The notes under the pieces were generated by a model. That model was not told the origin of the DNA, ran no database searches, and was given only the letters and a program-made list of their open reading frames with translations. DNA of 64,000 nucleotides from Desulfobacula toluolica Tol2 (GTDB taxonomy: Bacteria > Desulfobacterota > Desulfobacteria > Desulfobacterales > Desulfobacteraceae), in NCBI RefSeq assembly GCF_000307105.1, contig NC_018645.1, forward strand, positions 2,875,501-2,939,500. The letters are read 5' to 3'. Below, piece after piece: positions 13,226 to 16,510 of the stretch. Positions within the stretch are counted from its first letter, which is position 1; each line of letters opens with the position of its first letter. Position numbers and translations under genes: made by a program.

Positions 13226-15094
13226 TTAATATCGTCCTAAAATTCTTAGGTTTTCAGATTTCTCCCGGAGCATTTCCATTGCGGGTGCAAGTTCCGGTGT
13301 TTCAATATCCGCTTCAAGATCTGCGTAAAACATATATTCCCAAGGTTTTCCCAGCATTGGCCGAGATTCGAGTTTCACAAGATTGATCTGGTATTCTGAA
13401 AATACTTTCATAACTTCATATAAAGCACCAGGTTGATTGCCGGTGGAAAAAATAATGGATGTCTTGTTCACTTTTTTATGCCCTTTGATCTCTTTGGCAA
13501 TTATGGCAAATCTTGTGTAATTTCTTGGATTATCTTCAATGGATTCTTCAAGAATATTCATATCAAAAATTTTTGCGGCCATGGTTGATCCGATTGCTGC
13601 GGTATACTTATCGTCGGAATCCTTGACATACCTCACTGCACTGGAAGTGGCTTTGACCGGAACCTGCTCGATTTCAGGATATTGATCCAGGTAGTTTTTG
13701 CATTGCGAAAATGCAGGTGGCGGCGCAAGAATCTTTTTGATTTCATTTTTTGACACATTTTTATGAGCTATCAATGCATGTTTCACTCTTATGGTGATCT
13801 CGCCGATTATTTTCAGATCATATTCCTGGAGAAGATCGAAATTCTCATGGATGGAGCCGGAAAGCGAATTTTCTAAAGGAACAACACCGTACTGGCAATG
13901 CCCGGTTTGAACCGCCTGGAAAATATCCTTAAATGTTTTCATTGGAACAGGCCGAATTTCTTCGCCGAAATAGCCAAGACTTGCCTTATGGCTGTAAGCC
14001 CCGTATTCTCCTATAAAGGCGGCTGTTTTTGAATCTTTAGCTTCCATATTGTTGATGATTTCCGATTTTTTCAAATAATCAAAATCAAGCTGTTTGCCCA
14101 CAACCGGTGCAATCACATAAAGATCCCGTGTCAACTGGCCGAACTGTTCCGGGTAAAGACTCTGTGGACCGTCTGACAGCGCCTGGTCCGGATTGTTGTG
14201 AACCTCAATCATTAGGGCATCCGCCCCCGCCGCAACAGCAGCCCTTGCCATGGGACTTACTTTTTCCCTCATGCCCGTTGCATGGCTTGGATCAATAATA
14301 ATGGGCAGATGAGTCAATTTTTTCAAAACCGGAATGGCCGACAGATCCAGTGTGTTTCTTGTATAAGGCTCAAAGGTTCTGATACCCCGTTCACAAAGGA
14401 TCACATTGTTGTTTCCTCCCGCCATAATATATTCTGCAGACATCAGCCACTCCTGGATTGTAGCGGCCAGCCCCCGTTTCAACACAACCGGTTTGTCCAT
14501 GCGGCCCACACATTTTAACAGTTCAAAATTCTGCATATTACGGGCACCGATCTGAACCACATCAACATATTTCATCATCAAATCCGCCTGGGACACAGAT
14601 GTAATTTCAGTGACCACGCCAAGTCCTGTCTGTTCCCTGACATCTGCGAGAATTTTGAGTCCTTCTTCTTCCAGCCCCTGGAAGGAATATGGCGAAGATC
14701 TGGGTTTATATGCCCCGCCCCTGAACAGCACCGCACCATATTTTTTCACCTCTTTTGCAATGGTCATGGCCTGTTCATGGCTTTCCACAGCACACGGTCC
14801 TGCCACAATGACAATCCTGTCCCCCCCCACCACAACATTTCCGATTTTTACCTTGGTATCTTCTGATTTAAACTCCCGGCTGGCAAGCTTGTGTGCGGTT
14901 GTGACGCGAACGGCATCGGCAATTCCTTCCATCTGTTTAAATTCATCCAGGCTTGTTGCGGGTTTTCCGATGATGCCGATGACATTTCTGCCGGCATCCA
15001 TAATTTCACGGGTAATACACTTCTCATCGGACAGCATGTTTTTAATTCTATCCTTCTGATGTTCAGTAATATTGCTTTCCAGTACAAGAATCAT
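13226..15094 (-). CDS. Fused 3-deoxy-7-phosphoheptulonate synthase and prephenate dehydratase
   Basis: A 622-residue bifunctional enzyme. Residues 1-90 are the ferredoxin-like regulatory domain of type I-beta DAHP synthases ([17 protein letters not shown]). Residues about 95-345 are the DAHPS barrel, with [28 protein letters not shown] and [14 protein letters not shown]. Residues about 355-540 are prephenate dehydratase ([44 protein letters not shown] with the catalytic TRF). Residues about 545-620 are an ACT domain with the Phe-binding ESRP motif. The protein thus joins the first step of the shikimate pathway to the last committed step to phenylalanine; there is no chorismate mutase domain. 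An AAAGGAGaaacaaa site precedes the ATG. A Phe-rich leader peptide and tandem hairpins upstream point to transcription attenuation by phenylalanine. Confidence 0.92.
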
Positions 15095-15144
15095 TTTGTT
15101 TCTCCTTTGTCAAAAAATCATTTCAATCAGGCTTAAAATAAAAA

Positions 15145-15176
15145 AGGCCCCGGGAAAAATATTCCCAGAGCCTTAA
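15145..15176 (-). terminator. Second leader hairpin with U-tract (candidate attenuator terminator)
   Basis: Read on the minus strand, AAGGCTCTGGGAA pairs with TTCCCGGGGCCTT (13 pairs, a few G-U) and is followed by TTTTTTATTTT. This is a strong intrinsic terminator located about 50 bases ahead of the DAHPS-PDT start codon and downstream of a Phe-rich leader peptide. Its 5' arm can instead pair with the 3' arm of the preceding hairpin, the competing pairing expected of an attenuator. Confidence 0.75.
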
Positions 15177-15182
15177 AAATCA

Positions 15183-15226
15183 AAATAAAGCCCCGGGTGG
15201 CTTGATGTCCACCCGGGGCTTTATTT
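15183..15226 (-). promoter_or_regulatory. First leader hairpin of the phenylalanine attenuator
   Basis: A perfect 18-pair inverted repeat (arms AAATAAAGCCCCGGGTGG and its complement, 8-base loop). On the minus strand it follows the leader peptide stop by 17 bases and is itself followed by a U-rich run. Its 3' arm CCCGGGGCTTT can alternatively pair with AAGGCTCTGGG of the second hairpin over 11 positions with G-U pairs. It may act as a 1:2 or protector stem, or as a terminator itself. Confidence 0.7.
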
Positions 15227-15243
15227 AAATAAAAAATAAAACG

Positions 15244-15315
15244 TCACACCGGATGAACGCTCCTAAAAAAGAAACGTCCAAAATTAAATATATTTATGTG
15301 TGTCATTTTATTCAT
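15244..15315 (-). CDS. Phe-rich leader peptide of the DAHPS-PDT gene (pheL-like)
   Basis: A 23-codon frame begins with ATG after a good TTGGAGaaaaa ribosome binding site and ends with TGA. Five of its residues are Phe, clustered as F-N-F-G-R-F-F-F at positions 10-17. It lies between a promoter-like TTGACA element and two tandem hairpins, upstream of a gene for phenylalanine biosynthesis. This arrangement matches the known E. coli pheA leader in logic though not in sequence. Translation speed through the Phe codons would report charged tRNA-Phe level. The Phe codons end about 40 bases before the first hairpin, so the exact ribosome-hairpin geometry is not the textbook one. Confidence 0.8.
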   Translation of the reverse strand: MNKMTHINIFNFGRFFFRSVHPV

Positions 15316-15339
15316 TTTTTCTCCAATGTATTGGAACAA

Positions 15340-15368
15340 TATCTACAGATCATTTCAATTCTTGTCAA
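15340..15368 (-). promoter_or_regulatory. Putative promoter of the Phe leader and DAHPS-PDT gene
   Basis: On the minus strand a consensus -35 TTGACA (15363-15368) is followed after 17-19 bases by TAGATATT, a weak -10. Transcription would start near 15333, just ahead of the leader peptide ribosome binding site, which is the expected layout for an attenuated operon. Confidence 0.5.
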
Positions 15369-15463
15369 CAATAAAAAAAATTTTCTCTTAACAATTATGC
15401 CATTTTGAAAAACTCGGCATCAATGATATACTAATTTGCTTATTTAAATATAAAGTGTCCCGG

Positions 15464-16510
15464 TTAAAACGAGAGGGTCAAGGTCAAAGATCCTATGATC
15501 TGTCCCTGTTCCTGGTTGTCAAACTGTTTGGTTCGGAAAAGATGCCGGTAGGTCAGTTTGACCATATCAACGTTGAATGAAAATCCAACGGAAAGATCTG
15601 CCACCAGCCATTTTTTATCAACGCTCGGGCTGTCTTCCCAAGTGTTGCCGTCCAGAAAAATATCACGAAAGACGGCCTTAACCTGGGAACCGGCAAAAAT
15701 ATGCGCGCCAAAGGTTGTCTTTCCAGGGCCCGAATGTCTATTAAAAGGAGCGCCCACCCCTGCTCCGGCGCGGATGATATCTGATCCGAAATCTTTTGGA
15801 AGATTATACCCGAAGCGAATTTCACCTCCCGTGTTGGCCGATGTTCTCACATTGCCCAGGGTCATTCCGGCATGAGAAATCAGGTCATAATCCAAGGTCT
15901 TTGACAACTCCATGCTGTGCAGACGCCATTTTCGCTGCCACGACAACCTGACTGCCGGTTCATTATGAAGCTGGTTATCCCATCCCTTTGCTGTGGGAAT
16001 ACCCCTCCAATCATGGACCGTATTCTGAACAAATTCCCCTTTGGCAGCAGGACCTACAACACCCAGGGCAATTTCAAGCGTATCAAGGATGGTTGCGGTT
16101 TTACTGTGCAAGGCCAGCCCACAGTAAAGAAAGCCTGCATACGGTCGGTCCATTTTAGATGGTGAAGTTGTCTGGATATCAGAAGGCGTATAAATCTGAT
16201 GTCCAAGCAAAATGCCTACATTGTGGGCACTTCCCCCATCACCTGAGAAAGGAATGGCTTTGATGATCGGTATGGACCATCTTGGCAGGCGAACATCATC
16301 CCTGTATCGGTTAAGATCCTTGGAAAGCCATGTGATCTGCGTGGCATTGGTGTAATACTTATCCGTGTCTCCGAAAAGATCATTTTCATAGAAGAGTTTA
16401 ACTGTTTGAAGCTGAGAGGGATCTTTGGCCCAGGCAGAGGTTGAAAAAAAGAACCAATAAAAAATAATGCCGATACACCCATATTGTCTGACTATATTTA
16501 ACAAACTCAA
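15464..16510 (-). CDS. lpxR: LpxR-like lipid A 3'-O-deacylase (outer-membrane beta-barrel)
   Basis: A 348-residue protein with an N-terminal signal peptide (hydrophobic IGIIFYWFFFSTSAWA). The mature part opens with KLFYENDLFGDTDKYYTNAT, whose Asn-Asp pair and TN motif correspond to the active-site residues of Salmonella LpxR. It continues with MDRPYAGFLYCGL and the family signature HDWRGIPTAKGWDNQLHNEP, including the catalytic His. It ends in Phe after alternating strands (GSLTLTLSF), as outer-membrane barrels do. LpxR removes the 3'-acyloxyacyl chain of lipid A and needs a divalent cation. It implies an LPS outer membrane. It is transcribed away from corA, from its own promoter. Confidence 0.88.
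   Translation of the reverse strand: MSLLNIVRQYGCIGIIFYWFFFSTSAWAKDPSQLQTVKLFYENDLFGDTDKYYTNATQITWLSKDLNRYRDDVRLPRWSIPIIKAIPFSGDGGSAHNVGILLGHQIYTPSDIQTTSPSKMDRPYAGFLYCGLALHSKTATILDTLEIALGVVGPAAKGEFVQNTVHDWRGIPTAKGWDNQLHNEPAVRLSWQRKWRLHSMELSKTLDYDLISHAGMTLGNVRTSANTGGEIRFGYNLPKDFGSDIIRAGAGVGAPFNRHSGPGKTTFGAHIFAGSQVKAVFRDIFLDGNTWEDSPSVDKKWLVADLSVGFSFNVDMVKLTYRHLFRTKQFDNQEQGQIIGSLTLTLSF

Follow-up and report, generated by a model that had tools for sequence, protein, structure and literature searches.

In Desulfobacula toluolica Tol2, the gene for a fusion of DAHP synthase, prephenate dehydratase, and an ACT domain (DAHPS-PDT) is preceded by a leader that encodes a phenylalanine-rich peptide. We think it quite probable that this leader attenuates transcription under the control of a ribosome and in response to charged tRNA-Phe, by means of six segments (0, A, B, C, D, and E) that work as a relay. 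Most likely, it would switch on the synthesis of phenylalanine only when phenylalanine runs short; from the sequences of the leader and its relatives, the reading as a phenylalanine-responsive attenuator appears well supported. The leader apparently belongs to a wider set of similar, as yet unnamed switches in relatives, and its main interest is this codon-matched set of leaders around it.

The leader and its alternative pairings

The window is the whole stretch of DNA that we analyzed, 64,000 nucleotides of contig NC_018645.1 (positions 2,875,501 to 2,939,500). All elements of the leader are on its minus strand, in the stretch 15368-15135, and the gene is downstream, at 13226-15094. The encoded protein has 622 amino acids and matches the Pfam families DAHP_synth_1, PDT, and ACT. 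The initial annotation had proposed a phenylalanine attenuator and listed parts for it, and these parts are present. TTGACA, the putative -35 box of the leader promoter by sequence match, is at 15363-15368. A -10-like TAGATA lies 17 nt past it (15340-15345) and is a poor match to the consensus; this pair was not among the calls of a consensus promoter scan. The 23-codon reading frame, MNKMTHINIFNFGRFFFRSVHPV with its stop codon (15244-15315), has a Shine-Dalgarno-like GGAG (15321-15324) 5 nt ahead of its ATG at 15315. All five of its Phe codons lie in the stretch FNFGRFFF (15265-15288). Two hairpins follow. Hairpin 1 (B:C, 15183-15226) has 18 pairs and a U-rich stretch after it, and is a likely terminator. 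Hairpin 2 (D:E) has 13 pairs at 15174-15144 and ends in the T-run before the gene (15135-15174 with the T-run); it is the second putative terminator. The 3' arm of hairpin 1 (segment C, CCCGGGGCTTT, 15187-15197) can instead pair with the 5' arm of hairpin 2 (segment D, AAGGCTCTGGG, 15164-15174), over the 11 positions described earlier, three of them G-U.

Competition between the two hairpins is probably not the whole switch; it omits another pairing. Segment A (GTTCATCCGG, 15249-15258), which comprises the Val-His-Pro codons and the first base of the next codon, is complementary over ten bases (15258-15249 with 15216-15207) to segment B (CCGGGTGGAC, 15207-15216), in the 5' arm and loop of hairpin 1. 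Segment 0 is GGACG within the Gly-Arg codons (15275-15279), and its partner is the start of A plus the base preceding A. The predicted duplexes of the terminators are stronger than those of the antiterminator (B:C -28.7 vs. A:B -17.4; D:E -21.6 vs. C:D -16.0), so antitermination must rest on the order of folding. By eye, hairpin arms often share near-palindromic cores (CCCGGG in the window, within 15226-15144, and CCATGG or CCGTGG elsewhere), so one arm is able to pair with several others.

Within the window, the 216-nt leader folds far better than chance (z = -9.73; 0 of 200 shuffles were as good), and both strands of 14500-16000 together have 5 terminator-like sites, against a shuffle mean of 1.7. 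As far as the sequence can tell, there is thus an intrinsic terminator between peptide and gene, in the form of two hairpins with U-rich tails. The run of Phe codons is not significant by itself. Its best 15-codon window has 5 aromatic codons, while dinucleotide shuffles of this AT-rich DNA average 5.03 (P = 0.675), so its significance rests only on conservation in relatives. The gene upstream of the leader encodes an LpxR-type outer membrane protein (lpxR, 15464-16510, minus strand); it had no counterpart among the upstream genes of the relatives that we compared.

Conservation and predicted mechanism

Loci came from two sources: a protein search in 116 whole genomes, limited to its 30 best places, and a scan of contigs (the best 80 of 528 confirmed). 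With four further places, this gave 113 loci, and 91 upstream regions once duplicates and partial genes were removed; one of these regions belongs to a paralogue (L002). Loss of the frame or the hairpins in relatives would have counted against the initial annotation, and the comparison did not refute it. The other 90 regions are distinct and lie upstream of DAHPS-PDT: the leader is present in 81 of them (77 aligned and 4 by eye), absent from 6, and 3 are unreadable. Besides the paralogue, the counts below for 77 leaders leave out two contig ends (L018 and L099), a masked region (L069), four leaders that were seen by eye and were unfit for our script (L074, L078, L088, and L107; L074 is without a clear hairpin 2), and the leaderless regions (L024, L085, L100, L102, L108, and L112). 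L077 and L079 were kept, although their D:E was miscut by the script. In three of the six leaderless regions (L085, L100, and L102), another reading frame ends just ahead of the gene. In L024, whose protein is 77% identical, there is no recognizable peptide, and a remnant-like hairpin with a T-run precedes the DAHPS-PDT gene.

In the aligned leaders, the peptide's C-terminus is a variant of FGRFFFxFRSVHPV. Phe codons number 2 to 9 among the last 20, with a mean of 6.1; Tyr and Trp account for just 9 and 13 of 1540 codons. The length of the Phe run varies, yet the distance from 0 (GGACG) to A (GTCC) is 21, 24, 27, or 33 nt, a multiple of three, in 72 of the 77 leaders. No triplet rule was seen in the non-coding spacers from stop to B and from C to D (28/32/17 and 27/23/27 of the 77 leaders). 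In other words, the leader has a translatable short peptide that is rich in codons for the end product (five Phe of 23 in the window) and whose frame is kept, although an in-frame start with a Shine-Dalgarno-like site was found in only 56 of the 77. Of 73 leaders, 67 have an exact TTGACA upstream, compared to 4.6% of letter shuffles. Among 69 leaders that have TTGACA, the first two positions of a -10-like box are T in 62 and A in 61.

The segments of the window's leader can form five successive alternative pairings, as in a his-type leader, and all five are conserved. Across the 77 leaders, standard pairs make up 93.6% of 0:A, 96.4% of A:B, 94.8% of B:C, 92.4% of C:D, and 93.9% of D:E, while slid versions of the helices reach 71.1% at most. 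When partners were swapped between leaders, the pair shares of 0:A, A:B, B:C, and D:E were reached by 0 of 300 swaps, a comparison that ignores kinship; for C:D, the share (0.924) was not above the best of 300 segment swaps (0.925). By mean duplex energy, the own partner beat all 1000 swaps for each of A:B, B:C, C:D, and D:E, again with kinship ignored. D:E has 129 double-change cells in the 77 leaders. The initial annotation had suggested aligning the leaders to look for covariation, and in 38 thinned sequences it is found for both states: the antitermination set (A:B and C:D) has 17 double-change cells, compared to 7.2 in shuffles, and the termination set has 90, compared to 31.1, with 0 of 500 shuffles as high in either case, kinship once more ignored. 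A:B and C:D together would form an antiterminator that is mutually exclusive with the terminators, although C:D fails one of the swap tests.

We then asked where a ribosome would have to wait. The initial annotation had observed that the Phe codons end about 40 bases before hairpin 1, which is so (the gap is 38 nt), and had concluded that ribosome coverage must act in some unusual way. We folded the transcript up to the end of B, at equilibrium, with a parked ribosome masking the stretch from 14 nt upstream to 15 nt downstream of the first P-site base. When a Phe codon occupied the A site, the probability of A:B was above 0.5 at 346 of the 413 positions, and 72 of the 77 leaders had at least one such position. 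When the stop codon was there instead, none of the 77 leaders passed 0.5 (mean 0.00). Counting back from the stop, the switch point is at codons -7 and -8 (mean probabilities of 0.20 and 0.56), and the Phe run ends near it, with Phe at -8 in 70 leaders and at -7 in 30. Given the mean of 0.20 at -7, the last Phe of those 30 leaders is mostly too late to free A. In the window's leader, A:B had a probability of 1.00 on each of the first three Phe codons and 0.85 on the fourth; the fifth gave 0.10, and the stop 0.00. In this folding, which the initial annotation had also called for, a ribosome on any of the first four Phe codons thus leaves A free, while one at the stop covers it. A cruder measure for the same leader, the total pairing of B with upstream sequence, gave 0.98, 0.98, 0.98, 0.88, and 0.36 on the Phe codons, 0.31 at the stop, 0.36 without a ribosome, and values of at most 0.50 for the codons in between. 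Once A is counted in, the Phe codons are at the right distance, and the gap needs no special action by the ribosome. At least in the equilibrium model, the control codons are placed so that a stalled ribosome would select the antiterminator.

From these elements, we infer how stalling, termination, the response to phenylalanine, and the use of C:D would work in this species. If phenylalanine is plentiful, the ribosome would reach the stop codon and cover A; B:C (hairpin 1) and D:E (hairpin 2, with its T-run) would then form, and transcription would end at one or both of them. If phenylalanine is short, the ribosome would wait on the Phe codons and cover 0, leaving A free. A would bind B, C would be released to pair with D, and the gene would be transcribed. 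Without a ribosome, 0:A would pair in the window's leader and the terminators would form (0:A 0.88, A:B 0.21). Across the 77 leaders, however, A:B exceeds 0.5 without a ribosome in 57, so not every leader would be off when untranslated. The folding and the conserved pairings support the codons at the end of the peptide as the probable sensing arm of a his-type relay.

The main rival explanation, which we consider unlikely, is that only 0, A, B, and C are regulated: hairpin 1 would be the sole controlled terminator, hairpin 2 would be uncontrolled or a fail-safe, and C:D would be idle. This would fit the column test, where C:D stayed below the best swap, and the leader of the AroFGH-type DAHP synthase in the same genome (see below), which by eye has one hairpin only. 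It would also fit the 45 of 77 leaders in which at least 6 of the 8 bases after hairpin 1 are T; hairpin 1 is stronger in leaders with such a U-tract (-27.9 vs. -23.2, P = 3.3 · 10−7). A:B is weaker in these leaders (-18.5 vs. -21.1, P = 7.4 · 10−4). Another 16 leaders have 4 or 5 T's there, but the remaining 16 have 3 or fewer, so that only hairpin 2 seems able to terminate in them, and its reversal would require C:D. Unless it is leaky, an uncontrolled hairpin 2 would block the gene under all conditions. The energy of C:D, better than in all 1000 swaps, also argues against an idle C:D, as do its columns 121 and 165, which have CG in 21 sequences, UA in 6, and UG in 2, although they are unpaired in 9. 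We had expected C:D to be stronger in leaders without a U-tract after hairpin 1, and this expectation failed (-16.4 vs. -16.2, P = 0.85). Returning to the six-segment relay, we read the middle hairpin as a putative terminator of its own in some lineages, including the window's, while other lineages would depend on hairpin 2 and hence on C:D.

The other explanations fare much worse. That the switch consists of hairpin 1 against hairpin 2 alone, as in a pheA-like leader, with some special action of a ribosome far upstream, has the complementarity of C and D in its favor, but it omits A, whose conserved pairing with B (96.4%) explains the position of the Phe codons; we think it very improbable. 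The attenuator of the initial annotation would stand, and the logic of the six-segment his leader would fit it rather than that of the enterobacterial pheA leader. It is just as hard to believe that the leader binds a metabolite (a riboswitch) or a protein and that the small frame is incidental. There are indeed two conserved hairpins with a terminator, and another leader with two hairpins, the trpB motif, has been put forward as a candidate riboswitch by authors who do not decide against attenuation (PMC11109978). But a riboswitch would not account for the triplet spacing in 72 of 77 leaders, or for the way that the type of codon tracks the downstream gene (see below). Least probable of all, the hairpins might be ordinary tandem terminators of lpxR, which precedes the leader in the same orientation, with its end at 15464; we rejected this because a promoter-like box and a peptide gene lie in between, because the conservation of A:B would have no reason, and because the neighbor's strand varies among 70 relatives (same strand in 32, opposite in 31, and no neighbor in 7, by a longest-frame rule).

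Related leaders across the phylum

Similar leaders precede genes of the aromatic pathway across the phylum, as judged by covariance-model searches and by reading the codons. A model of the Phe leaders (R1), whose E-values are rough, matched 111 of 395 genomes from the phylum when E was allowed up to 10−3. A second model (R2), for which 44 hits from 46 sources passed the cut into the training set (A3), had matches in 154 of the 395 at E up to 10−5. These two-hairpin models also matched the opposite strands of real leaders (up to 35.9 bits for R1, and 36 bits for R2), so we read the codons and did not count low-scoring hits as leaders unseen.

We classified 69 loci (L122-L190) by the downstream gene, using BLAST clusters and family scans of representatives; ten loci that were placed by eye agree with their BLAST class. 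There are 14 DAHPS-PDT, 10 stand-alone DAHP synthases, 5 AroFGH-type DAHP synthases, 12 ADH synthases, 14 aminotransferases (two of which, L170 and L187, are doubtful as leaders), 4 solute-binding proteins, 2 trpE, 2 phenylacetate-CoA ligases, 2 of an unknown family, and 4 others (L143, L179, L186, and L189). With the window's own leader included, the run of aromatic codons goes beyond dinucleotide shuffles at P up to 0.05 in 54 of 70 loci, uncorrected and among finds of a T-rich model. In 20 further places from the R2 list, an aromatic run was seen by eye in all 20, and 14 go beyond shuffles at P up to 0.05. The loci L193-L197, and the R2 loci that were named L198-L219, were outside this reading; several are places that were read already. 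For 55 loci that are not before DAHPS-PDT, the mean energy of the A:B duplex is -20.4, compared to -17.4 for the best of 2000 swaps, among widely differing sequences. In 8 loci, the own partner outranks all others of the 55, and in 23 it ranks in the best tenth.

The type of codon in these leaders follows the class of the gene and its pathway. For each leader, codons were counted in the open 12-codon window with the most aromatic codons, whatever its frame; this rule picked the wrong frame in L134. Besides the doubtful leaders L170, L179, L186, and L187, the count leaves out L143, L145, L169, L189, L221, L223, and L236. DAHPS-PDT leaders have 5.4 Phe codons on average (n = 14), and 4 of them have all three kinds of aromatic codon. 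Aminotransferase leaders average 5.4 Phe and 2.5 Tyr (n = 13), and the mean number of Trp codons is 3.5 for TrpE (n = 4) and 4.0 for TrpB (n = 3). All three kinds are present in 9 of 12 leaders of stand-alone DAHP synthases, 6 of 8 of the AroFGH type, and 8 of 13 of ADH synthases. Because the leader RNAs of these common-pathway genes carry mixed Phe, Tyr, and Trp codons, they would sense all three end products.

ADH synthase is an alternative entry into the aromatic pathway. Phe and Tyr codons abound in its leaders (L137, L138, L147, L155, L159, L160, L165, L174, L183, L184, L188, L190, and L239), joined by Trp in the 8 of 13 just mentioned, and these leaders could respond to each of the end products. 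A search of D. toluolica's own genome for ADH synthase gave no match over the cut-off. Two leaders with aromatic codons (L153 and L161) precede phenylacetate-CoA ligase, a catabolic or salvage gene. Leaders rich in Phe or Tyr also precede periplasmic solute-binding proteins (L149, L158, L178, L180, L220, L226, L229, L231, L232, and L238), and their codons may tell which amino acid is transported. Finally, related proteins are encoded behind the aromatic leaders of L145 (1650-3134) and L169 (3-1442). The protein of L145 has a weak match to a Pfam acetyltransferase, and a scan of both against NCBIfam gave no hit.

The genome of D. toluolica itself has two more leaders before DAHP synthases. The leader of the AroFGH-type gene (L192) encodes the Tyr- and Phe-rich peptide MNFYTTDRLYFYFGYFYTELPVVRYS, followed by one hairpin, and lies at 881246-881360 on the minus strand (G000:C1:881246-881360; 47.2 bits with R2, E = 2.9 · 10−5). 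Of 68 genomes in the family, 60 have the AroFGH-type gene. We read 30 of these loci, L192 included, and found a run of Tyr and Phe codons in all of them; the frame stops early in L274, and L281 is without a T-run. The paralogue set aside above (L002) is a stand-alone DAHP synthase (G000:C1:4575332-4576339, minus strand). Reading by eye, we found a frame before it that ends in LWRWWRITFCGSGLK and includes Trp-Arg-Trp-Trp, and then two hairpins with T-runs; neither R1 nor R2 reported this leader. At least 2 Trp codons in a ten-codon window, chosen for Trp, are present in 18 of 21 loci of the stand-alone type (20 hand-picked places of the paralogue and L002 itself; the exceptions are L243, L252, and L257). 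With a parked ribosome, the pairing of B in L192 was 0.79-0.97 on the aromatic codons before the last segment and 0.25 at the stop, which supports this leader. The result for L002 is weakly supportive (0.75-0.77 on Trp, and 0.56 at the stop). Without a ribosome, B pairs as on the control codons (0.97 for L192 and 0.75 for L002), so neither leader shows a default-off state.

Altogether, it seems fairly likely that each of the three DAHP synthase genes has its own attenuator (for Phe, for Tyr and Phe, and for Trp) and that these are part of a phylum-wide aromatic regulon, in which mixed-codon leaders of the common-pathway genes (DAHP synthase and ADH synthase) sense all three amino acids. E. coli controls its three DAHP synthase isozymes with TyrR and TrpR. 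If we are right, three leader RNAs do the same here, and the aromatic pathway of this lineage of sulfate reducers has a complete and testable scheme for control in cis, in which the codons of each leader reveal which amino acid governs the enzyme. The DAHPS-PDT leaders would also be a natural series of six-segment relays, with or without a U-tract past the middle hairpin, in which the passing on of one ribosome's position could be tested, and the mixed-codon leaders could be studied as possible three-input sensors.

Comparison with known leaders

Rfam had nothing at its gathering scores on the window's leader or on 12 other leader loci; its sole match in the window is a tRNA elsewhere. At E up to 10, there are 55 hits on the leader stretch, which we take for chance matches of strong hairpins. 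Our literature search, which was far from exhaustive, found no report of such leaders in this lineage of sulfate reducers.

Several described systems share parts of the design. The uORFC-13-1 motif of Acholeplasma is a proposed Phe-sensing upstream frame with a terminator, before the DAHP synthase gene aroF (PMC8632094). It is from another phylum and has 24 representatives, with at least one Phe codon; the portion of that paper we cite describes no relay. In the ilvBNC attenuator of C. glutamicum, a leader peptide sets the choice among terminator, antiterminator, and anti-antiterminator (PMC11857589). The choice of terminator or antiterminator by a leader peptide would be shared with the window's leader, while ilvBNC has three hairpins and branched-chain codons and is from the Actinobacteria. 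The trpB motif (RF04312) resembles the window's leader in having two hairpins, the second a terminator, before amino-acid genes, but it is from Firmicutes and Fusobacteria, and it is presented as a riboswitch candidate, with the question of attenuation left open (PMC11109978). RF04312 was the top of the weak Rfam hits, with 36.4 bits, below its gathering score of 59.

The enterobacterial pheA leader has a four-segment layout, with a Phe-rich peptide and a terminator before the gene for prephenate dehydratase. The initial annotation had ascribed the same logic to the window's leader, which also has a Phe-rich peptide and a terminator before a gene that includes prephenate dehydratase. This probably does not hold, as the pairings are of the his type. 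The gene is also another fusion, in another phylum, and the Phe_leader model (RF01859) scores just 16.9 bits (its gathering score is 55). The his leader's pairings include C:D. The Salmonella his leader has control codons in its peptide, E:F as terminator, B:C with D:E as antiterminator, and A:B as the default (PMC4046918). Its A:B, B:C, C:D, D:E, and E:F correspond to 0:A, A:B, B:C, C:D, and D:E in the window. On the leader strand, Rfam's His_leader model reaches 30.9 bits, under its gathering score of 49. Unlike the his leader, the leader in the window would sense phenylalanine instead of histidine and would control DAHPS-PDT, and in many members of the DAHPS-PDT leader set, the middle hairpin is itself terminator-like.
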